A DNA stretch of 64,000 nt from an uncultured SAR86 cluster bacterium (lineage in GTDB: Bacteria; Pseudomonadota; Gammaproteobacteria; Magnimaribacterales; AG-339-G14), in assembly GCA_902594855.1 (NCBI GenBank), contig CACJNS010000001.1, positions 168,696 to 232,695 of the forward strand, given 5' to 3'. Made by a program: the position numbers and the translations under genes. Position 1 is the first letter of the stretch. Each line of letters opens with the position of its first letter. Shown here one piece after another: positions 1-21,392 of this stretch. The notes under the pieces were generated by a model. The model searched no databases. It was given only the letters and a program-made list of their open reading frames with translations, and was not told where the DNA came from.

Positions 1-898
1 TTAGGATGTAAAAAGAATGATAATTGGATGAAAGCTCAGCAGGTAAATCAGGAAAATAAAGCTTACCATCTGTCTTTAAATCTCTCAAAAACTCATTATA
101 TTTTTCATATAATTTTTTTCTATAGGATATATTTTCTCTGACAAAATTTAATTGGCTATCCAAAAAACTTGCTTGAAGTTCAGAGGGATAATAACTTCCA
201 CCAATTTCCCTCCAGGTGTATTTATCAGTAAGGCCTTTCAAGAGTTCTTGCCTGTTTGTTCCTCTCTCCCAAATCATCTGACATTTTTTAAAATAATTAT
301 TCTTCTTTATATAGAGAGCACCCGATAAACCAGCATGCAGGTTTTTTGTTTCATGAAAAGAGAAACAACCAAAGTCACCAAATGTTCCAGCTGAATGGCC
401 ATTAAGTTTTGATCCAAATGCCTGAGCGGCATCTTCTATTAAAATTATTTTCTTTTTTGAGCATATTTCTTTTAATTTCAGAATATCACCTAAGAATGAT
501 CCGTAATGAACCATAACAATGGCTCTAGTATTTCTATTAATTCTTTTTAGTACATCCTCAATCGATATTGTCATATTAGTATTTTGAATTTCTGCAAAGA
601 CAATTTTAATTCCAACTTTTGCAAATGCATTGGCTGTAGATGGAAAAGTATACGATGGCATAATTACTTCCCCAGAACCTATTTCATCCCTAATACAAAG
701 AGCGACAATATCAAGAGCAGAGCTACAGCTGTCGGTCAAAAGTATATTTTTTTTGCCAAGTATTTCAGTTATTTTTTGATGACAATTTTTTGTAAAGACT
801 CCATCTCCATAGAATTTATTTTCCTTAAATACTCTTTTTATATTTTCTAACTCATTACCAGTAATGTAAGGCTCATTAAAATTTATCTTATTTTTCAT
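1..898 (-). CDS. wecE: dTDP-4-amino-4,6-dideoxygalactose transaminase (WecE/RffA-like), 3' end cut by window
   Basis: PLP-dependent DegT/DnrJ/EryC1/StrS-family sugar aminotransferase. The start is the ATG at 898-896 (begins MKNKINFNEPYITGNELE) and the frame stays open to base 1, giving about 299 of an expected ~375 residues. Motifs resemble E. coli WecE closely: CGDG-type loop (FYGDGVFTKNC), EVIMPSYTFPSTANAFA, LIEDAAQAFGS, and the PLP-lysine segment CFSFHETKNLHAG near residue 185. WecE turns dTDP-4-keto-6-deoxyglucose into dTDP-Fuc4N using glutamate; RfbA and RfbB, which make the substrate, are encoded upstream in the same array. Its start overlaps the glycosyltransferase stop by 11 nt. The family call is firm; exact product stereochemistry is inferred. 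Confidence 0.88.
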   Translation of the reverse strand, partial: MKNKINFNEPYITGNELENIKRVFKENKFYGDGVFTKNCHQKITEILGKKNILLTDSCSSALDIVALCIRDEIGSGEVIMPSYTFPSTANAFAKVGIKIVFAEIQNTNMTISIEDVLKRINRNTRAIVMVHYGSFLGDILKLKEICSKKKIILIEDAAQAFGSKLNGHSAGTFGDFGCFSFHETKNLHAGLSGALYIKKNNYFKKCQMIWERGTNRQELLKGLTDKYTWREIGGSYYPSELQASFLDSQLNFVRENISYRKKLYEKYNEFLRDLKTDGKLYFPDLPAELSSNYHSFYIL

Positions 899-3370: not shown

Positions 3371-4243
3371 TTATCTTAGTATATTTTTAAGATATGAGTG
3401 ATAGTCCGAACCTTTAAATTTTTGAGAATTTTTCAAAATTGTGTCTTTATCTAACCAACCATGATTGAAGGAAATTTCTTCGAGACATGCTATTTTAAAT
3501 TTCTGTTTATCTTCAATATTTTGAATGAAATTTGAAGCATCATTGAATGCATCAAAAGTTCCAACATCAAACCAAACGAATCCTCGATTTAAAGTTACTG
3601 CACTCAATCTACCTTCTTTCAAATAAAGTTTATTTAAATCAGTTATTTCTAACTCTCCCCTTGAAGAAGGAGACAACTTTTTAACTAAATTAACAACATC
3701 GCTTTTATAAATGTATAAACCAGTTGCAACTTGATTAGATATAGGATTTTTAGGTTTTTCTGTTAACTTCTTTACTTGACCTTTTTGATCATATTCAATA
3801 ACACCAAATCTCTCAGGATCTTGAACGTCATAACCAAAAATAGTTGCTCCTTTGTTATTTTTAACCGCTTTCTCTACTACTTGATATAAGTTGTTGCCAT
3901 AAAAAAAGTTATCTCCCAAAATAAGAGCAACGTTATCTTCAGAAATAAACTCTTTTCCAATTAAAAAAGCTTCCGATATACCTTTTGGACTATCTTGGAT
4001 TTTAAAAGAAATAGAAATCCCAAAATTACTACCATCACCTAATAATGATCTAAAAGAATTTAAATCTTTTTCATTACAAATGATTAGTATGTCTCTTATT
4101 CCAAGCAGCATTAAAATCGACAATGGATAATAAATCATTGGTTTATTGTAAATAGGAAGAAAATGTTTATTTATTACGCTACTTACAGGAAAGAGTCTTG
4201 AACCTGTTCCACCTGCGAGAATTATCCCTTTATTTAAATTCAT
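3371..4243 (-). CDS. rfbA: Glucose-1-phosphate thymidylyltransferase
   Basis: 290 aa, the usual length for RfbA/RffH. It makes dTDP-glucose from dTTP and glucose-1-phosphate. The N-terminal nucleotide-binding signature is GGTGSRLFPVSSVINKHFLP followed by KPMIYYPLSILM; ALILGDNFFYG holds the metal-binding Asp, and EKPKNPISNQVATGLYIY and LSPSSRGELEITDLNKLYL are family hallmarks. It overlaps the rfbB stop by 14 nt. No RfbC or RfbD follows, so the dTDP-4-keto-6-deoxyglucose made here is more likely routed to WecE than to rhamnose, unless those genes lie elsewhere. Confidence 0.96.
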   Translation of the reverse strand: MNLNKGIILAGGTGSRLFPVSSVINKHFLPIYNKPMIYYPLSILMLLGIRDILIICNEKDLNSFRSLLGDGSNFGISISFKIQDSPKGISEAFLIGKEFISEDNVALILGDNFFYGNNLYQVVEKAVKNNKGATIFGYDVQDPERFGVIEYDQKGQVKKLTEKPKNPISNQVATGLYIYKSDVVNLVKKLSPSSRGELEITDLNKLYLKEGRLSAVTLNRGFVWFDVGTFDAFNDASNFIQNIEDKQKFKIACLEEISFNHGWLDKDTILKNSQKFKGSDYHSYLKNILR

Positions 4244-5195
4244 TTAGATACCAATCAACTGTGGTTTCAAGCCCAGAAATAAGATTAAATTTTGGCTCCC
4301 ATCCCAAAACTTTTTTTGCTTTATCACTATTAATAGAATATCTGAAGTCATGTGCTGCCCTATCTTTTACATATTTTATTTTAGCAGAGATACTTTTTTT
4401 AATTTTTTTAGAAAAGATATCTTGAATTAGATTTATTATTTCGATGTTAGAACATTCTTGATTACCACCAATGTTATATGTATTACCAACCTCTCCCTTT
4501 TCAGAAATTTGGATTAAAGCATCAACATGATCTTCAACGTAAAGCCAATCTCTAATTTGATTTCCAGAGCCATAAACAGGTATTTCTTTTCCATGTTGTA
4601 AATTAAAAATTATTTTTGGTATAAATTTTTCTTTATCTTGGTTGGGGCCAAAATTATTTGAACAATTTGAGATAAAAGTTTTGATTCCAAATGTCTTATT
4701 CCAAGCCCTTACCAAATGATCTGATGAAGCCTTTGATGCCGAGTAAGGAGAGTTTGGAAAAAACTTTGAATTTTCAGTAAATGATTTATCACTTATTTCT
4801 AAATCACCATAAACTTCGTCAGTAGAAATATGCTGGAAAGTAACTTTATTTTCTAAGTTATTTTTTCTTATTGATTCTAGAAGATTAAATGTGCCAATAA
4901 TATTTGAATCAATAAACTCTCTAGGGGAAGCTATTGATCTATCAACGTGCGATTCTGCTGCTAGATGATATATGTGATCAGGATTAAAATCTTTAATAAC
5001 TTCGTGTACTAAATCATGATTTTTTAAATCAATCTTTGAAAAAAAATAATTGTCATATTTTTTTATAAATTTCCTATTTGAAGCATAGTTCAGTTTGTCA
5101 ATATTCATAATTATTGATGAATCGTTATCGATAAGCTTATTAATCAAATTCGATCCAATAAAACCTGCGCCTCCAGTTACAATGATTTTTTTCAT
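4230..5195 (-). CDS. rfbB: dTDP-glucose 4,6-dehydratase
   Basis: 321 aa extended short-chain dehydrogenase. The Rossmann motif is TGGAGFIGSNLINKL (residues 7-21). The active site has HISTDEVYGDL (Thr-Asp-Glu) and the Tyr-Lys pair in SPYSASKASSDHLV; SHVDRSI and NCSNNFGPNQDKEKFIPK are RmlB signatures. It converts dTDP-glucose to dTDP-4-keto-6-deoxyglucose, the shared precursor of Fuc4N, rhamnose and related sugars. It is slightly shorter than E. coli RmlB (361 aa) but keeps all motifs. Its start overlaps the wzy stop by 4 nt and its end overlaps rfbA by 14 nt, so it is clearly in the polysaccharide operon. Confidence 0.96.
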   Translation of the reverse strand: MKKIIVTGGAGFIGSNLINKLIDNDSSIIMNIDKLNYASNRKFIKKYDNYFFSKIDLKNHDLVHEVIKDFNPDHIYHLAAESHVDRSIASPREFIDSNIIGTFNLLESIRKNNLENKVTFQHISTDEVYGDLEISDKSFTENSKFFPNSPYSASKASSDHLVRAWNKTFGIKTFISNCSNNFGPNQDKEKFIPKIIFNLQHGKEIPVYGSGNQIRDWLYVEDHVDALIQISEKGEVGNTYNIGGNQECSNIEIINLIQDIFSKKIKKSISAKIKYVKDRAAHDFRYSINSDKAKKVLGWEPKFNLISGLETTVDWYLNEFK

Positions 5196-8336: not shown

Positions 8337-8339
8337 GGG

Positions 8340-8345: not shown

Positions 8346-8362
8346 ATTTTTAAGGTGTAATT

Positions 8363-9557: not shown

Positions 9558-9572
9558 CTTTGTTTTAATAAA

Positions 9573-9779
9573 TTATTTCTGGATGATAAAAAAGCCATTC
9601 ATTTTAGATGGAAAACAACCATATAAAAGCAGCAGAAGATTAAGAAAAATTAAATAAATGGAAATTTTTTTGGATAGAAATCCGCTGACTAATCTATTAA
9701 TTACTATAAAAGAAGCTAGTTTGAAAAATCTAGACAATAATAAATCGTAAATGAATGATATCTTGTAGACTATTTTCAT
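9573..9779 (-). CDS. Small hypothetical membrane protein, possibly a remnant
   Basis: 68 aa reading frame filling an otherwise unexplained 226-nt gap (9558-9783) between two sugar-nucleotide genes. It has a hydrophobic stretch near residues 40-55 (IYLIFLNLLLLLYG) and basic flanks, and no recognised domain. An AGAGGA sequence lies about 12 nt before ATG 9779, which is long for a ribosome-binding site. It could be a real small membrane protein, or debris left by replacement of a gene in the polysaccharide locus. Confidence 0.35.
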   Translation of the reverse strand: MKIVYKISFIYDLLLSRFFKLASFIVINRLVSGFLSKKISIYLIFLNLLLLLYGCFPSKMNGFFIIQK

Positions 9780-9783
9780 GATT

Positions 9784-10542
9784 TTATATGATCCTCTCTA
9801 TATCTTCTTCAGATGTAGCTTCTCCGTACTGAATTTCTATAATTTTACAAATTGAATTTGAATCATTAATAATTTGGTGCCATTTTTTTTTGGGTACTTC
9901 GAATGAGTCATGTAAATTTAAAGCTAATTCTTTGCAATTATCATCTGGATGATCAGCATATTTAACTTTGCATTCTCCTTCGGAGATAAACCATGTCTCA
10001 CTTCTTAAAAAATGTCTCTGAAAACTCATTTTTTTCCCAGGATTTATGACTAATTCTTTAAGTTTTACCCCTTTAGATTCAGAAAGATTATAAAAAAACC
10101 CCCATTCTCTCTCTTCTCTATAATTTAACCAATTCTTAAGTATTACTGAGCTTGAGTTTTCTTTAACTGAAGATCCAACTGAAAAAAGAAATTTAATATT
10201 TTTTAGTTTTAACTCTGGAATATTAGAATTAGTTCTATCACCACCATTGCAGAAAATTATTTCATCTTTGGGATATTTTTTTGATACCTTTTCAATACCG
10301 TTTATACAACTTCCTAATTCATCATCTTTAAATGAAATCACTTCATCAACGTATTTTATACTTTCCAAAATACACTTTCTCTCAGCGAAGGGCAGAAAAG
10401 GTTTTCCCTTCTTTTTAGCAAGCCAAACATCGCTATTAAGACAAACAACTAGTTTGTTTGAAATTTCTGAAGCCTCCTTTAGATAAGAAATATGTCCAGA
10501 GTGAATTGGATCAAAACCGCCACTAACAACTGAAATTTTCAT
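9784..10542 (-). CDS. Cytidylyltransferase-like domain fused to a C-terminal cupin
   Basis: 252 aa with two parts. Residues 1-135 are a HIGH-superfamily nucleotidyltransferase like the C-terminal half of RfaE/HldE or TagD: GGFDPIHSGHISYLKEA, VCLNSDVWLAKKKGKPFLPF and the RKCILESIKYVDEV helix. Residues 145-250 form a cupin like the C-terminus of type II phosphomannose isomerase/GMP: REWGFFYNL, VINPGKKMSFQRHFLRSETW and SFEVPKKKWHQIIN. It may form a nucleotide-activated sugar or alditol and bind or isomerise the sugar with the cupin. Its ATG lies 7 nt after the 3' end of tRNA-Leu, with no ribosome-binding site. Confidence 0.78.
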   Translation of the reverse strand: MKISVVSGGFDPIHSGHISYLKEASEISNKLVVCLNSDVWLAKKKGKPFLPFAERKCILESIKYVDEVISFKDDELGSCINGIEKVSKKYPKDEIIFCNGGDRTNSNIPELKLKNIKFLFSVGSSVKENSSSVILKNWLNYREEREWGFFYNLSESKGVKLKELVINPGKKMSFQRHFLRSETWFISEGECKVKYADHPDDNCKELALNLHDSFEVPKKKWHQIINDSNSICKIIEIQYGEATSEEDIERII

Positions 10543-10651: not shown

Positions 10652-11602
10652 TTATATAGAAACATAAGAAATGTACCATGACACAAACTCTTCTAAACCC
10701 TCGTCTAAGTTAACAGATGGATGATAATTTATCTCTTTTTCTGCCTTTTCCAGATTTGCATGTGTATAGAAAGATTCAGTCTTTGATGAAACTTCATTTA
10801 TTGTTGCTTTTTTGCTAAGTTTAAATTCAATTTTTCTCAATAAATCAATTGTTTTTATGGGGTCATTATTTCCTAGATTATAAATTCGGTAACCAAGATT
10901 GTTTGTTTCAATCAAGTTTATAGATGAAACTATGCCCTTAACAATATCAGAGATATGAGTCATATCTCTTGCCATCTTTCCTTTGTTAAAGAGAGTAATT
11001 TCTTTCCCTTTGAAAATATTATCCGTAAATAAATAATAGGCCATATCTGGCCTGCCCCAGCTACCGTATACAGTAAAAAATCTCAATCCGATAATATCTG
11101 TATCAAAACTATTAGAGAAAACTTCAGCTAAATTTTCATTATATAACTTGGTTGCTGCGTATAAAGATCTTGGAGATAATTTTTGATTTTCTTTAAAAGA
11201 TTTATTGCTTCCATCTCCATAAACAGAACTGCTAGATGCAAATATTATTTTTTTAATATTTTTGAATTTACAAAAATCTAAGAAATTGTGGAAGCCCGTT
11301 ATATTTGAATCAAGATATCTAAAATTTTCTTTCCAATCGAGCCTTACTCCTGGCTGAGCAGCCAAATTAATTGCTAAATCAAATTGCACGTTTTCTAATG
11401 AGCTTATTTTAGATAAATCAAGTTGTTCAAAAGCGAAGTTTTTATATTCTTTTTTAATTTTTTTTAACCTGGCTTCTTTTAATTTTGTTGAATAATAATT
11501 GTTAATGTTATCAATACCATAAACTTCATGTTTTTGTTCAAGCAAGGCTTTTGTTAGGTGATAGCCTATAAATCCGCAGCAACCTGAGATAAGAATTTTC
11601 AT
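10652..11602 (-). CDS. NAD-dependent nucleotide-sugar epimerase, UDP-glucuronate 4-epimerase-like
   Basis: 316 aa extended SDR. The Rossmann motif is ISGCCGFIGYHLTKALL (residues 4-20). Catalytic residues are in FASSSSVYGDG and the Tyr-x3-Lys SLYAATKLYNE. The segment LRFFTVYGSWGRPDMAYY is the hallmark of UDP-glucuronate 4-epimerases (CapI/LpsL), although the usual YGPWGRPDM Pro is Ser here. It would give UDP-galacturonate for the polysaccharide. It is the first gene of the minus-strand locus, divergent from the LuxE-like gene across a 105-nt intergenic region, and runs into tRNA-Leu 15 nt downstream. Confidence 0.85.
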   Translation of the reverse strand: MKILISGCCGFIGYHLTKALLEQKHEVYGIDNINNYYSTKLKEARLKKIKKEYKNFAFEQLDLSKISSLENVQFDLAINLAAQPGVRLDWKENFRYLDSNITGFHNFLDFCKFKNIKKIIFASSSSVYGDGSNKSFKENQKLSPRSLYAATKLYNENLAEVFSNSFDTDIIGLRFFTVYGSWGRPDMAYYLFTDNIFKGKEITLFNKGKMARDMTHISDIVKGIVSSINLIETNNLGYRIYNLGNNDPIKTIDLLRKIEFKLSKKATINEVSSKTESFYTHANLEKAEKEINYHPSVNLDEGLEEFVSWYISYVSI

Positions 11603-11707: not shown

Positions 11708-12781
11708 ATGTCATATTCCGAAAATTTAGATCTTCATCCAGTAGATATTAATAAAATTGAAAAGAAGAAGATTCTTCTCAAAACCTTACGTGATCTTACC
11801 TTCCATCATCATGAAAATTGTATGGAATATAAGAAAATTTTAGATTCTTTTTCAATCGATCTTTCGTTAATAAAAAATTCTTCTGATTATCCTTTTTTGC
11901 CTGCAAGAATATTTAAAGAATACTCCTTATCAAGCGTCAATAAAGAGGATCTAATAAAAACTATGATGTCCTCTGGTACAACAGGTAATAATCCTTCAAA
12001 AATTATGTTGGATAAGAAAACTTCAGCTAGACAGACTAAAGTTTTGGCTAAAATAATCAATCAATATATAGGTTCTAAGCGCCTACCAATGATCATAATT
12101 GATAATGAGTCGACAATAAAAAATAGAAATAAATTTTCAGCCAGGTCTGCTGGAATTTTTGGCTTTTCAATGTTTGGAAAAGATAAATTATTTGCACTTG
12201 ATGACCAAATGAATTTGAGGGTAGATGAAGTAGAAAAATTTATAAAAAAACATAAAGATTCTCAGATTCTTATCTTCGGCTTTACTTACATTGTTTGGAA
12301 ATATTTTCTTGAATATATCTTTGTGAATAAGATTTCATTTGACTTGAACAATGGGATTCTTTTCCATGGAGGAGGTTGGAAAAAAATTGAATCTGAAAAA
12401 GTTTCAAACCAAAAATTTAAATCAATTGCAAAAACTTTACTTAATTTAAATCAAGTACATGACTATTATGGAATGGTTGAACAGACTGGATCAATTTACG
12501 TGGAATGCTCTGAAGGATTCCTACACACTAATCTATATAACGATATTTTCATAAGAAGACCACAAGATTTTTCCATTTGTGAAATTGGAGAAAAAGGGAT
12601 GATTCAATCAATATCTTTGATTCAAGAGTCTTATCCTGGCCATTCTATTTTAACTGAAGACGAAGGAATTCTTTATGGGGAGGATGATTGTAAATGCGGT
12701 CAAAATGGAAAATATTTCAAGGTTCTTGGAAGAATAGAACAAGCCGAAATAAGAGGATGTAGTGATACCTTCTCTGCCTAA
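11708..12781 (+). CDS. luxE: LuxE-like acyl-protein synthetase
   Basis: 357 aa of the LuxE/PaaK acyl-adenylating family. Signs are YPFLPARIFKEYSL, the phosphate-binding SSGTTGNNPSKIMLD (about 89-103), NGILFHGGGWKKIE, DYYGMVEQTGSIYVEC and the C-terminal DDCKCGQNGKYFKVLGRIEQ-AEIRGC block. LuxE activates a fatty acid with ATP and passes the acyl group to the reductase LuxC; LuxC is the next gene, overlapping by 20 nt. No luxA, luxB or luxD is present, so this is not a luminescence operon. It is the first gene after a strong promoter. The acid it uses is unknown; a short or hydroxylated acyl chain made on the adjacent ACP is one possibility. Confidence 0.88.
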   Translation: MSYSENLDLHPVDINKIEKKKILLKTLRDLTFHHHENCMEYKKILDSFSIDLSLIKNSSDYPFLPARIFKEYSLSSVNKEDLIKTMMSSGTTGNNPSKIMLDKKTSARQTKVLAKIINQYIGSKRLPMIIIDNESTIKNRNKFSARSAGIFGFSMFGKDKLFALDDQMNLRVDEVEKFIKKHKDSQILIFGFTYIVWKYFLEYIFVNKISFDLNNGILFHGGGWKKIESEKVSNQKFKSIAKTLLNLNQVHDYYGMVEQTGSIYVECSEGFLHTNLYNDIFIRRPQDFSICEIGEKGMIQSISLIQESYPGHSILTEDEGILYGEDDCKCGQNGKYFKVLGRIEQAEIRGCSDTFSA

Positions 12782-13973
12782 AAAGCTTCCAAAGGTCTTC
12801 TCTGGAACAAGGGACTTTGAATCCTTGAAAAATGAGAGAGCATTTCAAGCTTTTGATCCTATGATATTAGATTTTTTAGATTATTTATCTAAAAAATTAC
12901 TAACGAAGAAGTATAAAGATTTTTCTGATATTGCAACTTTTGCTTTTTTTATCAGAAAAGCTAATCTCTCAAGAATAAAAAAAGGTTATGGATCATCATT
13001 AAATAGTTTAATTGGTAGAGGGTTATCTTTTCATATTGCCCCGTCCAATGTACCAATCAATTTTGCTTATAGTCTTATTACAGGATTATGTTCTGGAAAT
13101 AATTGTATTGTAAGACTTTCCTCAAAAGACTTCATTCAAAATAAAATAATAACGGAAGAAATTAATGGTCTTTTAGAATTAAAAAAATTTAAAACCCTAA
13201 ATGAAAAAATTTCAATTGTTCAATATGAAAAAGATGAAGAGATTAATAGGTATTTTTCAATAATTACTGACGTAAGAATCATTTGGGGTGGAGACGATAC
13301 CATCAATGAGTTGAGAAAATTTCCTATAAAACCAAAAGCAACTGAAGTATGTTTTCCTGATAGATATTCAATCTGCATCATAAATAGCCATGAATATCTT
13401 AAAGAAAATATTACATTCAAAAAAATAGCTCATAATTTTTTTAATGATACTTACTTCTTTGATCAAAATGCATGCAGTTCCCCAAGATTAATTTTTTGGT
13501 ATGGAAACGATAAAGATACAAAAAAATCTAAGGAAATTTTTTGGAGTCATCTTGAAAGCTTTTTAGTAGAAAAGAAATATGAAATTTCCTCCTTCATTTC
13601 ATCATCAAAATTGTTGTCGAAATGTATGGCTTCTATAGATTTAGATAACATCCAAATATCAAAAGATTCGTCTAATCTAATTGAAAGAATCCAAATTGAT
13701 TCTCTACATAAAGGATTAGAAAAATATAATGTCCCAGGAGGATTATTTTTTGAGTTTATCTCTGAAGAAATGTTAGATCTTAAAAGCTTCGTTGATGAAA
13801 GATTACAGACTATTACAACTATTGGTATGGATAAAAACTTAATAAAAAATTTTGTTATTGACCATGGATTAAAAGGCATAGATAGAGTTGTCGAAAACGG
13901 TAGAGCTGCTGAGTACAGCTTTAATTGGGATGGGTATGATTTAATTTTTCAGCTTACTAGAAAATTAGACTAA
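12762..13973 (+). CDS. luxC: LuxC-like acyl reductase
   Basis: 403 aa of the aldehyde-dehydrogenase-like LuxC family. The nucleophile is the Cys of DQNACSSPRLIFW (about residue 241). LSFHIAPSNVPINFAYSLI, NNCIVRLSSKD and VRIIWGGDDTINELRKF are family blocks for NADPH binding. It reduces an enzyme-bound acyl thioester to an aldehyde. The GTG at 12762 is the chosen start, overlapping the LuxE-like gene by 20 nt and preserving coupling. At 403 aa it is shorter than luminous LuxC (~480 aa). Without luciferase, the aldehyde is probably a biosynthetic intermediate; the neighbouring ThDP and NeuB-family enzymes both accept aldehydes. Confidence 0.86.
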   Translation: MIPSLPKKLPKVFSGTRDFESLKNERAFQAFDPMILDFLDYLSKKLLTKKYKDFSDIATFAFFIRKANLSRIKKGYGSSLNSLIGRGLSFHIAPSNVPINFAYSLITGLCSGNNCIVRLSSKDFIQNKIITEEINGLLELKKFKTLNEKISIVQYEKDEEINRYFSIITDVRIIWGGDDTINELRKFPIKPKATEVCFPDRYSICIINSHEYLKENITFKKIAHNFFNDTYFFDQNACSSPRLIFWYGNDKDTKKSKEIFWSHLESFLVEKKYEISSFISSSKLLSKCMASIDLDNIQISKDSSNLIERIQIDSLHKGLEKYNVPGGLFFEFISEEMLDLKSFVDERLQTITTIGMDKNLIKNFVIDHGLKGIDRVVENGRAAEYSFNWDGYDLIFQLTRKLD

Positions 13974-13980
13974 GTAAAAA

Positions 13981-14712
13981 ATGGAGATCAAAGAAGCTTT
14001 TTGGGAAAAAAGAAATCTAGGAATAGATGTATGTGAAATTATTATTTCAAAAAGTGATACAGAAGAAAAAATTTCTAACAACCTTGATAAGCTCAAATCA
14101 AATTTTAAGTATTTAGTTGCAAAAGTCCCAATAAATAACATTGACTCTTTGTTCCTTTTACAAAGGAAAAATTTTAAATTTATTGAGCAGATTTTTATTT
14201 GCTCTCACAATTTAAATGAGCCTAATTTTTCTTCTCTTCAAAAAAGAGTCTTGGATCATGTTGGACATGAAATAATGAAAAAATCTGAGAAGAAAGAACT
14301 ACAAAATTTTATACTCGATGGACTATTTAAAGAGGATAGGATTTCCTTAGATTCACACTTTAAAAAAGATTTATCAAATAAAAGATATCTAGGTCTAATT
14401 GAAGATGAAATTTCGCAAGGGGCTGAAATTTATTCTTTAACATTTAAAGGGAAAACATCAGGCTTTTTTGTTGCTAGGGAGCTAGAGAATAGGATTTTAT
14501 TTGCCTCGATCGGAGGAATTTATCCAAAATTTCAAGGCTTTGGTCTTGGATTGGGTTTGAATTATCAAGAAATAATCTTAGCAAGAAATCATAATTTAAG
14601 AAAAGTTAGAACTATTTATTCGTCAAATAATATAGGCGCTTCCTCTGTTCATCACCAACTTGCTTATGATATTGAGAATCAGTATTATGTACTCATAAAA
14701 CATGTCCCTTGA
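13981..14712 (+). CDS. GNAT-family N-acyltransferase, WecD-like
   Basis: 243 aa. The C-terminal half has the GNAT acyl-CoA binding motif ASIGGIYPKFQGFGLGLGLN (Q-x2-G-x-G) followed by KVRTIYSSNNIGASSVHHQL-type motif B. The N-terminal part starts IKEAFWEKRNLGIDVCEI and has LLQRKNFKFIEQIF, which parallels WecD (WENAFFGV and LQQLGFSLVEG). WecD acetylates dTDP-Fuc4N at N4, and the Fuc4N genes are in this window. Because it is embedded with an ACP, ligase and dehydratase, it may transfer a non-acetyl group. It follows luxC by 7 nt. The WecD parallel is by eye and moderate. Confidence 0.72.
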   Translation: MEIKEAFWEKRNLGIDVCEIIISKSDTEEKISNNLDKLKSNFKYLVAKVPINNIDSLFLLQRKNFKFIEQIFICSHNLNEPNFSSLQKRVLDHVGHEIMKKSEKKELQNFILDGLFKEDRISLDSHFKKDLSNKRYLGLIEDEISQGAEIYSLTFKGKTSGFFVARELENRILFASIGGIYPKFQGFGLGLGLNYQEIILARNHNLRKVRTIYSSNNIGASSVHHQLAYDIENQYYVLIKHVP

Positions 14713-14724
14713 ATAACCTTGTCT

Positions 14725-14728
14725 GGAG
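14725..14728 (+). promoter_or_regulatory. Ribosome-binding site that supports the TTG start of the ACP
   Basis: GGAG lies 6 nt before the TTG at 14735, within TCTGGAGAAAGTTTTG. It is one of few recognisable sites in the window and supports the rare TTG start; no in-frame ATG gives a full-length carrier protein. Confidence 0.55.
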
Positions 14729-14734
14729 AAAGTT

Positions 14735-14974
14735 TTGTCCAAATTAGAAACTTATGTCAAATGCTTTATAGAAAGCTTTCTCGTAGAAGAATCAGAATTA
14801 GAAGACCTTAAATATCAAGACATTGAGGAGTGGGATAGTGTTGGTCATATGAACTTAATGTCCCTATTAGAAGATGAATTTGAAATTGAACTTGATATCG
14901 ATGACATAATTGATTTTTCAAGCTTTGAAGTTGGTAAAGATATATTAAAAAAATATAAAGTAGATATTAAGTAA
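14735..14974 (+). CDS. Acyl carrier protein
   Basis: 79 aa, acidic, four-helix ACP. The phosphopantetheine Ser is in EEWDSVGHMNLMSLLEDEF (near residue 35), the standard D-S-[LVM] context, followed by IELDIDDIIDFSSFEVGKDI. The TTG start is supported by a GGAG site 6 nt upstream. It is a specialised carrier, distinct from FabF-linked AcpP (no fab operon here). It lies between a GNAT acyltransferase and a FabZ-like dehydratase, with an adenylating ligase and a phosphopantetheinyl transferase further along. It probably carries the acyl group processed by this cassette. Confidence 0.9.
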   Translation: MSKLETYVKCFIESFLVEESELEDLKYQDIEEWDSVGHMNLMSLLEDEFEIELDIDDIIDFSSFEVGKDILKKYKVDIK

Positions 14975-14976
14975 TA

Positions 14977-15450
14977 ATGGCTAATGATAAAACTCTTACA
15001 TTTGACTTGCCTCAAATTAAAGACTCCCAACAAAATAGATACCCTCTTTTATTCATTGATAAAATATTAGAAGCCGTTCCTGGAGAAAGAGCTACTGGAT
15101 TAAAATGTTGGACCTATAATGAATGGTTTTTTCCAGCTCATTATGAAGACGAACCAAACGTACCCGGATTTATTCAAGTTGAGTCTCTTGTTCAAACTTT
15201 TATTATGACCTTCCTTTCATTTGAGGAACACAAAGGCAATAAAACAAATTTTGTAAGTATGGATAAAGTGAAATTTAAGAAAAAAATCGTGCCAGGCGAT
15301 GTAATGTTAATCGAAGCAATATTAGATTCCTTCAAAAGAGGAATCGCAAAAGGTTCTGCAAAAGGAACGGTGGATGGTGAGCTAGCATGCTATGCAGAAT
15401 TTGTTGTTGCTCTTCCGAGTGTTTTTGAGAATTTTAAACCCAAAGGATAA
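14977..15450 (+). CDS. FabZ/FabA-like hotdog 3-hydroxyacyl-ACP dehydratase
   Basis: 157 aa hotdog-fold protein. RYPLLFIDKI matches the FabZ HRYPFLLVD block (His replaced). The catalytic His is in EWFFPAHYEDEPNVPGFIQV and the Glu in PGFIQVESLVQTF, both conserved; FVSMDKVKFKKKIVPGDVM is the substrate-tunnel strand. It would dehydrate or bind a 3-hydroxyacyl group on the adjacent ACP, 2 nt upstream. The missing first His and odd AHYED in place of GHFP suggest a specialised substrate rather than housekeeping fatty-acid synthesis. Confidence 0.82.
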   Translation: MANDKTLTFDLPQIKDSQQNRYPLLFIDKILEAVPGERATGLKCWTYNEWFFPAHYEDEPNVPGFIQVESLVQTFIMTFLSFEEHKGNKTNFVSMDKVKFKKKIVPGDVMLIEAILDSFKRGIAKGSAKGTVDGELACYAEFVVALPSVFENFKPKG

Positions 15451-15467
15451 TTTTTTAATTTCTCACT

Positions 15468-17255
15468 ATGAGGGTTAGTGACTACATTGCAGATTTTTTA
15501 TCTTCCAAGGGCATAGAGCAAGTATATTTAATAACCGGCAGAGGATCACTTTTTCTCACAGATGGAATTGCGAGAAATAAAGACTTAGAACCTATCTGTC
15601 TTCATCATGAACAAGCTGCTGCTTTTGCTGCTATTGCAAATTCTGAAATTTCTGAAAAGCCTTCTGCTTGCATGGTTTCTACTGGTTGTGCATCAACTAA
15701 TGTGCTTACAGCAGTGTTATCTGCATGGCAGGATGGAATTCCCTGCATATTTATTTCAGGCCAGAATGTCCTCAATGAAACAACAAGATATACAAAAAGT
15801 GATATTAGAACATTTGGTCAACAAGAGGCTGACATTGTAGAAATCGTAAGATCGATAACAAAATACTCTAAAATGATAGAAGATCCTAAATCTATAAAAT
15901 TTGAGATGGAGAAAGCTTACGACATCTCTATGCAAGGAAAAAAAGGACCTGTTTGGATAGATGTACCTTTAGATATTCAAAGCACAAACATAGATGTAAA
16001 AAATTTATCTTCTTATAAAAAGGTTTCAAAAAATCCTTTGAATGAAGTTAAAAAAAATAAAAAAAATGCAGGGATAATTAAAAATCTTATTAATAAATCA
16101 TCCAGACCAGTCCTTTTGGTGGGAGCAGGAGTCAGATCTAGTAATGCTATAACAGAGCTAAAAAAACTTTCTGAAGATAACAATATTCCTGTTACCTTTA
16201 CGAGTTCGGGAGCAGATATTTATGGATCTAAAAATAAACTATCAATTGGGTCTGTTGGATCCCAAGGATGTAGTAGGTCTGGTAACTTCACAGTACAAAA
16301 CTCTGATCTACTTATCGTCATTGGCTCTAGAATGACATCCTTAAATACAGGGATCGACTACTGTAAGTTTGCAAGAAATTCAAAAGTCATTCTAATTGAT
16401 CAAGACCTTAAAGAACACGACAAAGAAGGTATTAAATACACTAAAAAAATTGAGACAAATATTAAAGATTTATTGCAAGAAATTAATAAACTTAAAATCA
16501 GAAAAACAAATCAAAACTGGGTTAAAACTTGCCTAAGGTGGAAAAGGAAATTTAAAAAATTAAACAACTTTTCGTTAAGTAAACAAATAGATCTTTATGA
16601 ATTGGCAGATACATTTTCGAAAACTTTGCCGGCAAAATCCTGTTTTGTTTGTGATTCAGGATTTATTGATGTGATCATGCCAACAAATATAAATTTTAAA
16701 AATGGACAAAGGTGTGTTCATCCAGTATCCCAGGGTGCTATGGGATTTGCTTTGCCTGCAGCTATTGGATGCAGCCATGCATTTAGAGGTCCTATTATTG
16801 CAGTAATAGGTGATGGTTCAATTATGATGAATTTACAAGAATTGCAAACAGTGGCTCATCACAATATTCCTTTGAAGATCTTTGTGATCAACAATAATGC
16901 CTATGCAATAATAAATAGAAGGCAAAAAGAATTATTCAGAAAGAGAACTATTGGAACGAATCCAAGTGATGGACTATCAATTCCTGATTTTAAAAAAGTA
17001 GCTGATGCATTTAACATTAAATATCAATCAATTAGAACTAAGAATAATTTAGAATCAAAAGTTAAGAAAGTATTACAAAAAAATGGTCCGATTCTTTGCG
17101 AGGTTTTTGCAAGAGAGGACCAGTCATATATTGAAATATCTCATGCCAGAGATTCAAATAAAAAATTTGTAAGAAGACCTCTCGAGGACCAAGCACCTTT
17201 CATGGATAGAAAGATATTTTTAGAGGAAATGATCATTAAGCCTATAGACCAATGA
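15468..17255 (+). CDS. Thiamine-diphosphate enzyme, acetolactate-synthase-like
   Basis: 595 aa with the three-domain acetohydroxyacid synthase layout. The N-terminal PYR domain holds the catalytic Glu in CLHHEQAAAFAAIA (about residue 50), the central domain spans about 190-340, and the C-terminal PP domain has VIGDGSIMMNLQELQTVAHH and NNNAYAIINRRQ for ThDP/Mg binding. Such enzymes decarboxylate a 2-keto acid and add the resulting acyl anion to an aldehyde or ketone. Relatives occur in surface-polysaccharide loci. No IlvN-type regulatory subunit is adjacent and the neighbours are not branched-chain amino-acid genes, so a specialised C-C ligation is likelier. It ends with ATGA overlap to the NeuB-like gene. 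Confidence 0.88.
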   Translation: MRVSDYIADFLSSKGIEQVYLITGRGSLFLTDGIARNKDLEPICLHHEQAAAFAAIANSEISEKPSACMVSTGCASTNVLTAVLSAWQDGIPCIFISGQNVLNETTRYTKSDIRTFGQQEADIVEIVRSITKYSKMIEDPKSIKFEMEKAYDISMQGKKGPVWIDVPLDIQSTNIDVKNLSSYKKVSKNPLNEVKKNKKNAGIIKNLINKSSRPVLLVGAGVRSSNAITELKKLSEDNNIPVTFTSSGADIYGSKNKLSIGSVGSQGCSRSGNFTVQNSDLLIVIGSRMTSLNTGIDYCKFARNSKVILIDQDLKEHDKEGIKYTKKIETNIKDLLQEINKLKIRKTNQNWVKTCLRWKRKFKKLNNFSLSKQIDLYELADTFSKTLPAKSCFVCDSGFIDVIMPTNINFKNGQRCVHPVSQGAMGFALPAAIGCSHAFRGPIIAVIGDGSIMMNLQELQTVAHHNIPLKIFVINNNAYAIINRRQKELFRKRTIGTNPSDGLSIPDFKKVADAFNIKYQSIRTKNNLESKVKKVLQKNGPILCEVFAREDQSYIEISHARDSNKKFVRRPLEDQAPFMDRKIFLEEMIIKPIDQ

Positions 17256-18274
17256 AATTTAATGATGGCAAATTGATAGAAAATTATGGAAGACCTTACA
17301 TCATAGCTGAGGTTAACACTAGTCATTTTGGAGATATAGAAAAAGCCAAGGAAATGATCCAAGAAATTAAAAAGGCAGGTTGTGACTGTGTAAAATTTCA
17401 ATCTTGGAAGTCACATACACTTTATGCTGAGAGTTATTTTAAAGAGAATCCCATTTCAAAGAGATTCTTCGAAAAGTTTTCAATGGATGAAAGTCAGTTA
17501 GAAGAAATTTCTATTTATTGCAATTCAATAGGTATATCCTTTGCTTCTACTCCGTACTCAAATGATGAAGTAGATTTATTGGTTAAGTGTAAAGTACCTT
17601 TCATCAAAATTGCTTCGATGGATATTAACAATTTACAGTTTCTTGAATATATTGCGAATAAAAAATTACCAATAATTTTGTCTACTGGAATGTCAACTTT
17701 CGAAGAGATTGATCAGGCTGTAAAAGTAATTAAATCCACTGGGCATGAAAAATTGGCTATTCTTCACTGTGTATCAATTTATCCCACAAAAGATGAAAAT
17801 ATAAATATCAACAATATATCTGGTTTGATGAGTAGATTCCCAGATATTCCTATAGGATTCTCAGATCATACAACTTCAACACATATTCCAGCAGCTTCTG
17901 TTGCTCTTGGAGCATGCATAATTGAAAAGCACTTTACCTTAGACAATTCAAAAATTGGAATGGATAATCAGATGGCTTTGGAAAAGGATGAAATGGCGAT
18001 TTTAGTAAAATCTTGTCACTCAGTTTATAAGTCATTAGGTATTAAAAATAGAGTAGTATCTGAAGAAGAGGAAATTCAAAAAAAAGAAATGAGAAGAAGC
18101 ATAATCTCTTCAAAAGAACTGTCTTCGGGCAAAATCTTAGAGCTGGAAGATGTTTTATTGAAAAGGCCAGGTAATGGGATTCCAGCTGATAAACTTGATA
18201 CTGTATTAGGAAAAAAAATAAATAAAGATATTGGAAAAGAACACGTATTTAATGAGAAAGATTTCTTTGATTGA
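17252..18274 (+). CDS. NeuB-family PEP-dependent nonulosonate synthase-like protein
   Basis: 340 aa. The TIM-barrel NeuB domain (1-270) has IIAEVNTSHFGDIEKAKEMI, CDCVKFQSWKS, PFIKIASMDINN, LSTGMSTFEEID, LHCVSIYP and PIGFSDHTTSTHIPAASVAL with IIEKHFTLD. The C-terminal SAF domain (about 280-340) has RRSIISSKELSSGKILELED. Family enzymes condense PEP with an open-chain amino sugar to make sialic, legionaminic or pseudaminic acid. No partner genes for those acids (NeuC, NeuA, PseB/C/F/G/H) are visible in the window, so the aldehyde acceptor is open. It overlaps both neighbours by 4 nt, indicating coupling. Confidence 0.88.
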   Translation: MKFNDGKLIENYGRPYIIAEVNTSHFGDIEKAKEMIQEIKKAGCDCVKFQSWKSHTLYAESYFKENPISKRFFEKFSMDESQLEEISIYCNSIGISFASTPYSNDEVDLLVKCKVPFIKIASMDINNLQFLEYIANKKLPIILSTGMSTFEEIDQAVKVIKSTGHEKLAILHCVSIYPTKDENININNISGLMSRFPDIPIGFSDHTTSTHIPAASVALGACIIEKHFTLDNSKIGMDNQMALEKDEMAILVKSCHSVYKSLGIKNRVVSEEEEIQKKEMRRSIISSKELSSGKILELEDVLLKRPGNGIPADKLDTVLGKKINKDIGKEHVFNEKDFFD

Positions 18275-19704
18275 TTATTTATTTATTTGTGTTTGATTTA
18301 AGTCAACAAGATAGGTTTTTTCTATTATCTGAATCTCGCAATATTTCTTTTAGAGAATTGTCCTTATATTCTCAAGAACTCAAGGGAATAATAGGCGAGA
18401 GAAATATCATTATTTGCTTATCCAAAAATAATGTTAATTATCTTTGCGGATATATCTCTATGTTGTGCACAAACAATGTACCAATTTTACTCGAAGATAA
18501 TCAAGATAATGATTCTCTCAAAGAATATGAAGATACTTATAAACCTAATTATTATTGGGCTCATAAAGAAAGCCAGCAATTTGAAAACCTAAAAAAAGTT
18601 TTTTCAATTGGAGATTTTGATCTTTTTGAAGTTTCTTCTAAAAAAAGAGAGATTCATAATGACTTAGCTTTATTACTGTCAACTTCAGGCTCAACAGGAA
18701 GCAAAAAACTAGTTAGATTAAGTTATTCAAATATTTCATCAAATGCATCTTCTATAGCCAAATATCTAGAAATAAAAAAAGATGACATCTCTATATCTAG
18801 CTTACCCCTTCACTATACTTATGGATTATCAATTGTTCATTCCTTTCTTTTGAGGAATGCCAAATTTTTCGTAACTAATTTAACTTTTCTTCAAAGAGAA
18901 TTCTGGGAGATCATGAAAAAAAATAAAATAACTCACTTAAGTGGTGTTCCTTATTCATACGAAATGCTCAAGAAGTTAAAATTTTTTGATATGGATTTAC
19001 CATACTTGGAGACATTGACTCAGGCTGGCGGGAAATTAAGTAAGGAATTACATGAAGAATTTCATAATTTTTGTGTAAAGAAAAATAAAAGATTTTTCAT
19101 TATGTATGGTCAAACAGAAGCAACTTCAAGAATTTCATATCTCCCTTTTGAAAAGAAATTAAGAAAGTTGGGAAGTATTGGAATACCAATTCCAGGTGGA
19201 TCTTTAAAAATCTATGATAATAAAAATGAAGAAATTAAAAAACATAATAAGACTGGTGAAATTATTTATGAAGGAAAAAATGTAGCGCTTGGATATGCAG
19301 AAAGTATAGATTCATTAAAACTGGGCGATTGTTTTAAAGGAATACTAAATACAGGCGACTTAGGTTACTTTGACAAAGATAATTTTTTTTACATTACTGG
19401 ACGAAAAAAAAGAATAATAAAAATGCAAGGCACAAGATTAAGTCTGGATGAAATAGAATCAAATATTCAAATTAATCAGGAATTTGCAGAATTTACTTGT
19501 ATTGGTGAAGATGATCTTCTAATTGGCTTTACTACGAATCTTAATTCAGAAGAAATTTTGAAAAAAAAGCTAGTTAAAGACTTCAAAATTCCTTCAAAAT
19601 GCATAAAGCTAATTTCAGTAAAGGAAATCCCCAAAACAAGCTCAGGGAAGAAATCCTATGAAGATCTGAAAAAAATTTATATTTCTCTAAGTGCAGATAG
19701 ATAG
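18271..19704 (+). CDS. Acyl-adenylating ligase (AMP-dependent synthetase)
   Basis: 477 aa ANL-superfamily enzyme. Motif A3 is LLSTSGSTGSKKLVRLSYSN (about 131-150), A4/A5 are SLPLHYTYGL and FIMYGQTEATSR, A7/A8 are LNTGDLGYFDKD and ITGRKKRIIKMQGTRLSLDE, and the catalytic A10 lysine is in PKTSSGKKSYED. It activates a carboxylate as acyl-AMP and probably loads it on the cassette ACP or CoA. The TTG at 18271 overlaps the NeuB-like stop by 4 nt; a GTG at 18289 is an alternative. The enzyme is compact for the family. Its 3' end overlaps the convergent phosphopantetheinyl transferase by 18 nt. Confidence 0.87.
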   Translation: MIIYLFVFDLSQQDRFFLLSESRNISFRELSLYSQELKGIIGERNIIICLSKNNVNYLCGYISMLCTNNVPILLEDNQDNDSLKEYEDTYKPNYYWAHKESQQFENLKKVFSIGDFDLFEVSSKKREIHNDLALLLSTSGSTGSKKLVRLSYSNISSNASSIAKYLEIKKDDISISSLPLHYTYGLSIVHSFLLRNAKFFVTNLTFLQREFWEIMKKNKITHLSGVPYSYEMLKKLKFFDMDLPYLETLTQAGGKLSKELHEEFHNFCVKKNKRFFIMYGQTEATSRISYLPFEKKLRKLGSIGIPIPGGSLKIYDNKNEEIKKHNKTGEIIYEGKNVALGYAESIDSLKLGDCFKGILNTGDLGYFDKDNFFYITGRKKRIIKMQGTRLSLDEIESNIQINQEFAEFTCIGEDDLLIGFTTNLNSEEILKKKLVKDFKIPSKCIKLISVKEIPKTSSGKKSYEDLKKIYISLSADR

Positions 19705-20190
19705 AGAACAATACAAATTTTTTGTTTCAAAAGTCTTAGAAAAAATTTTATAACTAACATCGCTCAGAACTAACATTCCTGATTCTCTTTTAAATGAATA
19801 ACTCTGTAGATCATCCTTTTCAATTTGTTTACTCTTGAATGACGACTCAAGTAAGCACAAATACTCTAAATTTTTTAGATTTAATTTTTTTGCTTTATTT
19901 CTTATTCTTTTTGAAAGAGATTCATTAAGAAATCTTTCTTTGCTTTCTATATCTATACCCAGTTTCAAATTATCAAAAGAAAAACATATGGCGGCATCTT
20001 CTTTTGAATAGGATATGGAAGATGAACATGGCATCTTATTAAAATCTTTAGAAATTTCTTTAAAAAAAGTTTTTTTTATTTCAGCTCTTTTAGAATAAGA
20101 AAAGTTTAAAATTTCTAAGCAGGAATCAGAATCTGAAGCAAAAAGAGAAAAAAATATATCTCCTTTTAAAGAATGGACTTTATATTTCAA
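19687..20190 (-). CDS. Small Sfp-type 4'-phosphopantetheinyl transferase-like protein
   Basis: 167 aa. The signature LGIDIESKERF (residues about 99-109) matches the G-[IV]-D-[IL]-E Mg-binding motif; SSSISYSKEDAAICF precedes it as in PPTases (SISHSxG). The second motif, normally [FW]-x2-K-E-[AS]-x2-K, reads LCLLESSFK, keeping Glu and the last Lys but not the first Lys. It would attach phosphopantetheine to the ACP at 14735. The TTG at 20190 follows tRNA-Cys by 13 nt; no in-frame ATG gives the N-terminus. It is convergent with and overlaps the ligase gene by 18 nt. A catalytically altered relative cannot be excluded. Confidence 0.72.
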   Translation of the reverse strand: MKYKVHSLKGDIFFSLFASDSDSCLEILNFSYSKRAEIKKTFFKEISKDFNKMPCSSSISYSKEDAAICFSFDNLKLGIDIESKERFLNESLSKRIRNKAKKLNLKNLEYLCLLESSFKSKQIEKDDLQSYSFKRESGMLVLSDVSYKIFSKTFETKNLYCSLSICT

Positions 20191-20203
20191 AATTATATTT
20201 CAT

Positions 20204-20277
20204 TGGAGGCTGAGGTCGGAATCGAACCGGCGTACACGGATTTGCAGTCCGCTGCATAACCACTCTGCCACTCAGCC
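20204..20277 (-). tRNA. tRNA-Cys (GCA anticodon)
   Basis: 74 nt with encoded CCA. The acceptor GGCTGAG pairs with CTCAGCC, the anticodon stem-loop is GCGGACTGCAAATCCGT with anticodon GCA, and the T arm is GCCGGTTCGATTCCGAC-like. It begins 2 nt after the aminotransferase stop and ends 13 nt before the phosphopantetheinyl transferase start. It corresponds to E. coli cysT, which sits beside pgsA and next to leuZ. No tRNA-Gly is seen next to it. Confidence 0.97.
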
Positions 20278-20279
20278 CA

Positions 20280-21392
20280 TTATTCTGGAAATGATTGTAT
20301 AGCATTAGCTATGTATTCTGTATCTTTTAAGCTTAAATGAGGCCCGATAGGAAGACTTAAAATTTGATTACAAGCTATTTCAGAGTTTTTAGCATGAACT
20401 TTACTCGTTAAAACTGTGTTACTGAATGCCTTCATCTTACTTAAAGGTTTTGGATAATAAATGCCACAATTAATACCCTTTTTCTTTAAAAAGGCCATCA
20501 ATGGTTTTCTTTTTTTAAATAAAATTGGAAACTGATGAAATACAGAAAACTGATCTGATGATAATTTAAGAGTTTCAATATTTGATGATTTAATGGTATC
20601 AATTAAATGAGATGCTTGTTTAATTCTTAATTCGTTACATTTTTTTAAATTTTTAATTTTAAGATTTAGCACCGAAGCTTGAATGGCATCCAATCTAGAA
20701 TTTCTTCCTGCAAGTAAATGGTCATATGTTGCTACTCTGCCATGATTTGCTATTTTTTGAGCCTTTTCAAAAATGCTTTTTTTATTTGTAACAATTGCTC
20801 CTGAGTCTCCAAATGCACCTAAGTTTTTTGTAGGATAGAAGCTAAATGTTCCAATATCTCCAAAATTACCTACAATTTTTCCTCTAAACTTTGCTCCATG
20901 GGCTTGTGAACAATCTTCAATTATTTTGATGCCATGCTTGTCAGTAATTTTTTTGATTTCTGTCATATTGCATGGGTTTCCAAATAAATGTACAACAATT
21001 AAAGTACTAGTGTTTTTTGTTATTAACTTCTCAAGAGATTCTAATGAAATTGTAAAATCATTTAGATTGATATCTGCCAGGACTAATTTATAGCCTCCTC
21101 TAACTACAGCCTCTGCAGGAGATAAAAAAGTAAAATTTGGGACGATTACTTCAGAGTTCTTAGGAATATCTAAACTTTCTAAAGCAATCTCAAGGGCATC
21201 TGTTCCATTTGCTACTCCAAGACAATATTTACTTTCATTGAATTTTGAGAAATTCTCTTCAAATTTTTTTACCTCGTCGCCTCCAATAAAATTTTTATCT
21301 TTAATTAGTCTAGAAATATTGCTGATCGTTTTATCTAAGTCTAATTTTTTTAAACTAAGGTCGATGAAAGGAATATTTCTAACTTTTGGCAT
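20280..21392 (-). CDS. DegT/DnrJ/EryC1/StrS-family sugar aminotransferase
   Basis: 370 aa PLP enzyme. Motifs are GVANGTDALEIALESL, EVIVPNFTFLSPAEAVV, IIEDCSQAHGAKFRG, the PLP lysine in GTFSFYPTKNLGAFGDSGA (about residue 185) and GRNSRLDAIQASVLNLK. It aminates a nucleotide-linked keto sugar. It is clearly different from the WecE-like protein at 1-898, so two amino sugars may be made. It lies between pgsA (overlap 14 nt) and tRNA-Cys, an unusual place for a sugar enzyme, suggesting insertion linked to the neighbouring cassette. Exact substrate is not predictable. Confidence 0.9.
   Translation of the reverse strand: MPKVRNIPFIDLSLKKLDLDKTISNISRLIKDKNFIGGDEVKKFEENFSKFNESKYCLGVANGTDALEIALESLDIPKNSEVIVPNFTFLSPAEAVVRGGYKLVLADINLNDFTISLESLEKLITKNTSTLIVVHLFGNPCNMTEIKKITDKHGIKIIEDCSQAHGAKFRGKIVGNFGDIGTFSFYPTKNLGAFGDSGAIVTNKKSIFEKAQKIANHGRVATYDHLLAGRNSRLDAIQASVLNLKIKNLKKCNELRIKQASHLIDTIKSSNIETLKLSSDQFSVFHQFPILFKKRKPLMAFLKKKGINCGIYYPKPLSKMKAFSNTVLTSKVHAKNSEIACNQILSLPIGPHLSLKDTEYIANAIQSFPE

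Follow-up and report, generated by a model that had tools for sequence, protein, structure and literature searches.

What do LuxE- and LuxC-like genes make when they lie in a surface-polysaccharide locus? The question is raised by a nine-gene block (positions 11708–20190) in a 64-kb stretch of DNA, hereafter the window, from an uncultured SAR86 cluster bacterium with a genome of 1.23 Mb, about 30% GC and 15 contigs. The original prediction, made from the sequence without database searches, held that the block makes an unusual acyl group or a branched-chain sugar that decorates the neighbouring glycan. The explanation that we favour, and to which we give an even chance as a whole, is that the block is a horizontally acquired 'R-group' cassette, which builds an acyl group on a dedicated acyl carrier protein (ACP) without a ketosynthase and N-acylates the dTDP-4-amino-4,6-dideoxygalactose (dTDP-Fuc4N) of the flanking Wzx/Wzy-type locus. 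Eight of the nine genes lie on the plus strand (11708–19704, Table 1), all intact and with their catalytic motifs in the list of open reading frames (ORFs) and the motif alignments. Their overlaps (20, 4 and 4 bp) and gaps (2–22 bp) are compatible with a single operon, and the co-directional arrangement described at the outset, coordinates included, is confirmed by the ORF list and the Pfam families. The ninth, a small ORF facing the others, is a candidate phosphopantetheinyl transferase (PPTase).

The block was most likely acquired in one insertion, PPTase candidate included. The eight genomes of the same genus all (8/8) have an empty site, with a GalE-like gene no more than about 0.1 kb behind tRNA-Cys; in the window, 8.6 kb of DNA extending from the PPTase candidate through LuxE separates the two. 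Elsewhere in the family, the closest NeuB relatives share only 34–37% identity, and the small PPTase-candidate ORF has no convincing relative in these genomes. The empty site in the siblings, together with the lack of close relatives in the family, argues that the nine genes arrived together. The tRNA end is not visibly repeated at the far edge of the insertion. The viral contigs searched held no NeuB or LuxE relatives, the phage search returned a single distant LuxE, and the plasmid search returned no relative of the thiamine diphosphate (ThDP) enzyme at 1e-60 and NeuB relatives only at about 36% identity.

Length and content both differ among the eight siblings (L200–L207) in the region that leads from tRNA-Cys past the epimerase gene to tRNA-Leu and farther on; such variation resembles that of a hypervariable surface-polysaccharide region anchored by two tRNA genes. 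A DegT-family gene on the other side of tRNA-Cys (20280–21392, minus strand) was considered as the aminotransferase of the cassette and rejected, since the gene is already resident there in 5/8 siblings; it scores below every NCBIfam cut-off.

The enzymes of the block keep the residues on which their chemistry would depend. Both partners of the LuxE/LuxC pair retain their active-site cysteines: Cys351 of LuxE, in an RGCSDT motif, is invariant across seven relatives, and that of LuxC, in QNAC[ST][SA]P, is conserved in 15/15 aligned rows. LuxC matches the PDB LuxC at 9.7e-9. In six loci (L101, L116, L121, L130, L151 and L175), LuxE and LuxC are fused in a single ORF of 772–859 residues, which is compatible with acyl handover from one enzyme to the other. 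The ACP lies below the Pfam cut-off, and its attachment-serine motif, WDSVGHM, is identical in 14 rows. The His and Glu of HYEDEPNVPGFIQVE are conserved in the FabZ-like protein, and the ANL ligase, which may in fact begin a few codons after the annotated TTG, keeps its A3, A8 and catalytic Lys motifs.

That these genes do not travel together had been named in advance as an observation that would count against the prediction. A LuxE profile scan of one genome per species gave at least 576 confirmed places, of which the best 80 loci were read; all co-occurrence counts refer to these 80. The genes do travel together: the set FabZ-ThDP-NeuB-ACP-ANL-LuxE-LuxC is present in 13 of the 80 loci (one truncated by the end of its contig) and is conserved in five phyla, being found in Bacillota, Spirochaetota, Melainabacteria, Thermodesulfobacteriota and other Pseudomonadota. 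The carriers are Lachnospiraceae and other Clostridia, Selenomonas, Treponema and another spirochaete, Gastranaerophilales, Smithella, Vibrio tapetis and Symbiopectobacterium. The Smithella locus (L137) has the same eight enzymes (ACP-GNAT-FabZ-ThDP-NeuB-ANL-LuxE-LuxC), plus a WecE over its cut-off. ThDP genes occur in 16/80 loci. A cassette-type NeuB is present in 13/16 loci with a ThDP gene and in 3/64 others (p 9e-10), FabZ in 12/16 and 5/64 (p 1e-7), whereas a split transketolase, mostly accompanied by FabG, is found in 0/16 and 35/64 (p 3e-5). On the best LuxE tree there are 22 changes between module versions, so the chain-building modules seem to have been exchanged often. A thioesterase or metallo-beta-lactamase gene is present in 8/16 of the ThDP loci and is once fused to the ANL gene.

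LuxE/LuxC-transketolase loci are also carried by Rhizobium plasmids. That of pRA_T24_2 (L076, NZ_CP098804.1, 5179–17362) has LuxE/LuxC, the split transketolase, an ACP and a ligase, together with an LpxA-like transferase, DegT, FabZ and a GMC oxidoreductase; we know of no glycan role on record for such loci.

The destination of the acyl group is suggested by the GNAT protein. Its own sequence scores are weak (NCBIfam WecD model 1.5e-5, 24.9 bits for a cut-off of 219), but in a Foldseek search with an AlphaFold model built from 15 relatives (pLDDT 92.8), WecD (2fs5) ranks first of 350,542 PDB chains (E 3.9e-15, TMt 0.79). Since the fold is that of WecD and the score falls far under the cut-off, the protein is WecD-like rather than WecD, as it had been labelled from the start. 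In the same locus, RmlA, RmlB and WecE all exceed their curated cut-offs, the full WecE gene (L179:1477–2622) with 427.5 bits for an NF008687 cut-off of 375, and through them the flanking locus would make dTDP-Fuc4N. These genes are surrounded by Wzx-, Wzz- and Wzy-like proteins, Wzz and Wzy lying below the Pfam cut-offs. A dedicated ACP, an N-acyltransferase, chain-building genes and an amino-sugar pathway, which are the parts of an R-group cassette, are thus all present. Among the relatives, a WecD-like GNAT goes with a WecE-type DegT aminotransferase in 10/13 loci, against 1/45 (p 6e-8), while hexapeptide acyltransferases pair with an aminotransferase of another type (p 7e-4). Both kinds of acyltransferase exclude each other (p 0.005), and the GNAT occurs irrespective of whether the locus carries the ThDP or the transketolase version. 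From these associations, the pathway most likely ends in N-acylation of an amino sugar, with an interchangeable chain-building module.

These neighbourhoods also bear on whether the block belongs to the glycan at all. If it had landed in the polysaccharide locus by chance, it could make a diffusible small molecule, either an alpha-hydroxy ketone or a metabolite derived from an aldehyde. ThDP enzymes are generally known to convert fatty aldehydes into acyloins, and a discrete insertion with possibly its own PPTase would suit such a cluster. Against this, relatives adjoin glycosyltransferase, WecE, FkbM or Wzy genes across phyla, the block holds neither an exporter nor a regulator, and the GNAT has the WecD fold and relatives that pair with WecE, so that we regard a diffusible product as very unlikely.

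Also on the minus strand of the window, a gene group at 7045–10542 encodes a small transaldolase/FSA, a SIS isomerase, a HAD phosphatase, a nucleotidyltransferase and a cytidylyltransferase fused to a mannose-6-phosphate isomerase-type cupin. These genes suggest a sugar pathway of NDP-heptose type, or a related one, in which some parts are unusual.

The ThDP enzyme had been called acetolactate-synthase-like, a label that has to be revised. Its closest PDB entry is JanthE (8rph), a YerE-like carboligase, at 6.5e-94, the next entry being at 1.3e-67. Acetolactate synthase (ALS) matches are at 1e-67 or weaker, and a tree sets the enzyme apart from five ALS-type enzymes with a support of 98, so a plain acetolactate synthase identity was rejected. 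The catalytic Glu and the GDG...NN motifs are kept. The thirteen cassette ThDP enzymes form one clade (SH-aLRT 100), nested among enzymes linked to DmpF/DmpG; the locus L157 carries an acetaldehyde dehydrogenase and a 4-hydroxy-2-oxovalerate aldolase, both over cut-off. Reading the neighbours of 23 JanthE-like loci outside the cassette placed at least 15 of them among RfbF/G/H-type genes (RfbF and RfbG over cut-off in L037), and showed a NeuB-family gene in nine and a DmpF+DmpG pair in five (in L038 by synteny with L037). DmpG joins pyruvate, and NeuB joins phosphoenolpyruvate (PEP), to an aldehyde, and both yield a 4-hydroxy-2-oxo acid. The RfbFGH-linked cousins carry either DmpFG or a separately recruited NeuB clade, and the NeuB tree implies at least two recruitments beside the YerE/JanthE-like family; because DmpFG or an independent NeuB adjoins the relatives in this way, a maker of 4-hydroxy-2-oxo acids recurs beside this family. 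In ErwE, a characterised YerE-like relative, 4-hydroxy-2-oxo acids are the donors (PMC12247030). By analogy with ErwE, and from these recurrent neighbours, we infer that the donor of the cassette ThDP enzyme would also be a 4-hydroxy-2-oxo acid. Its acceptor would be either the LuxC aldehyde or a keto-sugar, most likely the former.

A keto-sugar acceptor would make the product a branched-chain sugar, the second of the two originally proposed. Here, the sugar would be the dTDP-4-keto-6-deoxyglucose made by RmlA/RmlB, to whose C4 (or C3) the ThDP enzyme would attach the acyl carbanion derived from NeuB, and ACP, ANL ligase, FabZ and GNAT would serve a separate purpose. RmlB is present in the locus, most JanthE-like loci lie among RfbF/G/H-type genes, as counted above, and the characterised ThDP enzymes closest to that of the cassette are YerE-like ones that accept keto-sugars, YerE and ErwE acting on CDP-3,6-dideoxy-4-ketoglucose (PMC12247030). 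However, neither RfbG (CDP-glucose dehydratase) nor RfbH was found in the host genome, and with them no RfbFGH-type acceptor. LuxE/LuxC occur in 0/23 of the RfbFGH-type ThDP loci, and RfbG/RfbH in 3/80 of the best LuxE loci. Because the two gene sets rarely share a locus, LuxE/LuxC look like a replacement of the keto-sugar supply. In addition, the module that replaces ThDP elsewhere is a transketolase, and no function would remain for ACP, ANL ligase and GNAT. We therefore consider a branched-chain sugar unlikely, and of the original pair it is the unusual acyl group that is well supported, by the WecD fold, by RmlA, RmlB and WecE, and by the GNAT-WecE association.

Two side groups of YerE/JanthE-like loci deserve mention. 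In L037, L081, L089 and L094, the JanthE-like ThDP gene adjoins DmpF/DmpG and RfbFGH-type genes, which predicts 4-hydroxy-2-oxopentanoate as the physiological donor of this group. In L040, L082, L085, L086, L091 and L092, it adjoins a NeuB-family enzyme of about 500 residues that lacks Arg314 and Asp247 of NeuB and, as seen in L040, carries a C-terminal cupin. These loci lie mostly near RfbFGH-type genes, and the long enzymes probably make donors for branched sugars.

The NeuB-family enzyme of the cassette conserves the PEP and metal residues Glu25, Lys53, Gln55, Lys129, Ser132, Ser213, His215, His236 and Arg314 (Nm numbering) and has a SAF domain (5.8e-5). It misses the curated equivalog cut-offs both for NeuB (300 of 399.65 bits) and for PseI (268 of 340.25 bits), as do the cassette NeuBs of L137 and L128. 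Sixteen cassette NeuBs group in a single clade (SH-aLRT 99), to which neither the other NeuB/PseI sequences nor the NeuBs of RfbFGH loci belong, and about 23 alignment columns are specific to the cassette enzymes, several adjoining acceptor-side positions. Since several of these columns adjoin the acceptor side while the PEP and metal positions are kept, the aligned residues suggest that the acceptor probably differs from the known nonulosonate precursors.

The same data weigh on the idea that two unrelated pathways lie side by side, in which NeuB would make a nonulosonic acid and LuxE, LuxC, ACP, ANL ligase and FabZ would form a liposugar module. NeuB family membership, with the PEP and metal residues and Arg314 intact, speaks for it, as do the Aeromonas and enterobacterial islands, where lux-type genes stand beside pse genes (PMC7874193, PMC4875605). 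Yet a sialic-type role is disfavoured by the clade and cut-off tests, and the clade is tied to the ThDP gene. L128 carries an additional, true NeuB (498 bits for a cut-off of 400), and NeuB genes of other clades are also present in L100 and L172. PF03102 has a single match in the host genome. No CMP-sugar synthetase or nonulosonate epimerase was noticed in the locus. Two independent pathways are, in our judgement, highly improbable.

For the R-group cassette, the chemical steps, their order, the substrates and the structure of the final acyl group are inferred as follows. A short carboxylic acid would be activated by LuxE and reduced to an aldehyde by LuxC, and the NeuB-family enzyme would join PEP to an aldehyde to give a 4-hydroxy-2-oxo acid. 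The ThDP enzyme would decarboxylate this acid and transfer the resulting acyl carbanion to a carbonyl acceptor, for which the LuxC aldehyde is the likeliest candidate, while the beta-hydroxy carbonyl left by the NeuB reaction would be dehydrated by FabZ. The ACP, once primed by the cassette PPTase or by the AcpS of the genome, would be charged with the free carboxylate by the ANL ligase, and the WecD-like GNAT would move the acyl group to dTDP-Fuc4N, which would then enter the polysaccharide. The transketolase version offers a guide to the acceptor. A transketolase draws its donor from sugar phosphates, so the simplest acceptor for it is the LuxC aldehyde. In the window, this aldehyde would by analogy be the acceptor of the ThDP enzyme, or else the substrate of NeuB. 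The partner enzymes would fit the bond left by each C–C reaction, FabZ with the beta-hydroxy carbonyl from NeuB and FabG with the ketol from transketolase.

Several points weigh against the cassette as drawn here. The route needs a carboligation product with a free carboxylate, for which none of the proposed steps is a clear source. The p-values above treat loci as independent, while the LuxE tree is poorly resolved and gives only two supported independent contrasts. WecE and RmlAB lie 7–11 kb from the cassette on the opposite strand, and the window lacks the thioesterase or metallo-beta-lactamase gene seen in half of the ThDP loci. Three loci, L114 (4566–5612), L123 (6436–7464) and L161 (7223–8287), combine a cassette-type NeuB with FabG and show no ThDP or transketolase gene within the stretch of DNA read around them, so the NeuB product may have another consumer there; a substitute enzyme was sought beside these NeuBs, and the Pfam-matched neighbours are glycosyltransferases and polymerases. 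Lastly, the facing ORF had been called an Sfp-type PPTase. The motifs behind this name are present and in order (SISYS at 58, GIDIE at 78, ESSFK at 115), at a spacing shorter than is usual in Sfp. Family membership did not follow: there is no credible Pfam, NCBIfam or PDB match, PF01648 is not matched even at E 10, and a single-sequence structure model was unusable (pLDDT 40). An Sfp-type PPTase is plausible from the motifs, and one ordinary AcpS is encoded elsewhere in the host genome.

Table 1 Genes of the cassette, edges of the insertion and dTDP-sugar genes in the window.
Feature	Position	Strand	Evidence
LuxE-type acyl-protein synthetase (turns an acid into an enzyme thioester by way of acyl-AMP)	11708..12781	+	Pfam LuxE 3.3e-55
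LuxC-type acyl-thioester reductase (aldehyde maker)	12762..13973	+	Pfam LuxC 4.4e-30
WecD-like GNAT N-acyltransferase, predicted to act on dTDP-4-amino-4,6-dideoxyhexose	13981..14712	+	structure model; sub-threshold NCBIfam WecD
Dedicated ACP, TTG start	14735..14974	+	attachment-serine motif; phmmer to annotated ACPs of relatives
FabZ-like hot-dog dehydratase	14977..15450	+	Pfam FabA 1.3e-17; NCBIfam FabZ 3e-32, just under cut-off
YerE/JanthE-like ThDP carboligase, three domains	15468..17255	+	PDB JanthE 8rph 6.5e-94; Pfam TPP enzyme 6e-35
NeuB-superfamily PEP-condensing enzyme, cassette-specific clade	17252..18274	+	Pfam NeuB 5.9e-76
ANL acyl ligase, predicted to load acid on ACP; TTG start	18271..19704	+	Pfam AMP-binding 3.3e-38
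Possible small Sfp-type PPTase, facing the plus-strand genes	19687..20190	-	motifs only
tRNA-Cys, 3' end at one edge of the insertion	20204..20277	-	ARAGORN
GalE-like epimerase gene, resident, at the other insertion edge, outside the cassette	10652..11602	-	directly behind tRNA-Cys in 8/8 siblings
RmlA, glucose-1-phosphate thymidylyltransferase	3371..4243	-	TIGR01207 399 bits, cut-off 361
RmlB, dTDP-glucose 4,6-dehydratase	4230..5195	-	TIGR01181 405 bits, cut-off 365
WecE, dTDP-4-amino-4,6-dideoxygalactose transaminase, cut by the window edge	2..898	-	NF008687 on the full gene

A broader proposal, which we put forward tentatively and with less than even confidence, is that ThDP-NeuB-FabZ is a ketosynthase-free chain builder, taking carbon from PEP through the 4-hydroxy-2-oxo acid of NeuB, carboligation with the LuxC aldehyde and FabZ dehydration to an ACP-bound acyl group. 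Transketolase-FabG and ThDP-DmpFG would be interchangeable in the same slot, and the whole would amount to a widespread combinatorial system for glycan side chains. The antigenic variety of bacterial coats and flagella stems in large part from acyl side chains carried by amino sugars, and in the literature surveyed the chains with a published gene basis are built by ketosynthases. If the proposal is true, several phyla share a plug-in carboligation system for acyl chains, including a new NeuB subfamily and new C–C bond-forming enzymes, and the lux-like genes of flagellin islands, so far read as 'liposugar' genes, acquire a function.

The original statement that no described pathway has exactly this gene set holds for the open-access papers searched: no description of the ThDP-NeuB-FabZ version was found in that literature, subscription papers being outside the search. 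The transketolase version is on record in Dickeya zeae, at the flagellin gene (PMC7575072, PMC4522980). The Dickeya island likewise unites LuxE, LuxC, ACP, an acyl ligase, a ThDP enzyme, an aminotransferase and an acyltransferase in one block, but it has a split transketolase and FabG in place of the YerE-like ThDP enzyme, NeuB and FabZ, a hexapeptide transferase in place of the GNAT, and a flagellin site. The flagellin glycosylation islands of Aeromonas group II and enterobacteria carry ACP-FabG-ligase-LuxE-LuxC, which has been read as a putative liposugar module only (PMC7874193, PMC4875605). They share with the cassette an ACP, an AMP ligase, LuxE and LuxC adjoining surface-sugar genes, and differ in having FabG rather than FabZ, no ThDP enzyme described, and a NeuB for pseudaminic acid. 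YerE, ErwE and JanthE (PMC12247030, PMC12188165) belong to the same sequence family as the cassette ThDP enzyme and have relatives with DmpFG- or NeuB-type neighbours; YerE and ErwE differ in their CDP-keto-sugar substrates, and both the cassette NeuB clade and LuxE/LuxC are found in 0/23 RfbFGH-type loci. In Flavobacterium psychrophilum, a 3,5-dihydroxyhexanoyl group is thought to be built on a dedicated ACP by ketosynthases and moved to Qui2NAc4N (PMC6519341). The wfpC-wfpG genes thus resemble the cassette in the dedicated ACP, the unusual acyl group, the N-acyltransferase and the 4-amino sugar, whereas they use ketosynthases and FabG, and the cassette block, which has no ketosynthase, has LuxE/LuxC, NeuB and the ThDP enzyme. 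Finally, compared with the LuxC-LuxE fatty-acid reductase of bioluminescence (PDB 7xc6), the cassette pair falls far under the NCBIfam bioluminescence cut-offs (LuxE 63.6 of 550 bits, LuxC 57.9 of 750 bits) and the block carries no luciferase genes, but the two systems draw on the same enzyme families and the same Cys relay logic.

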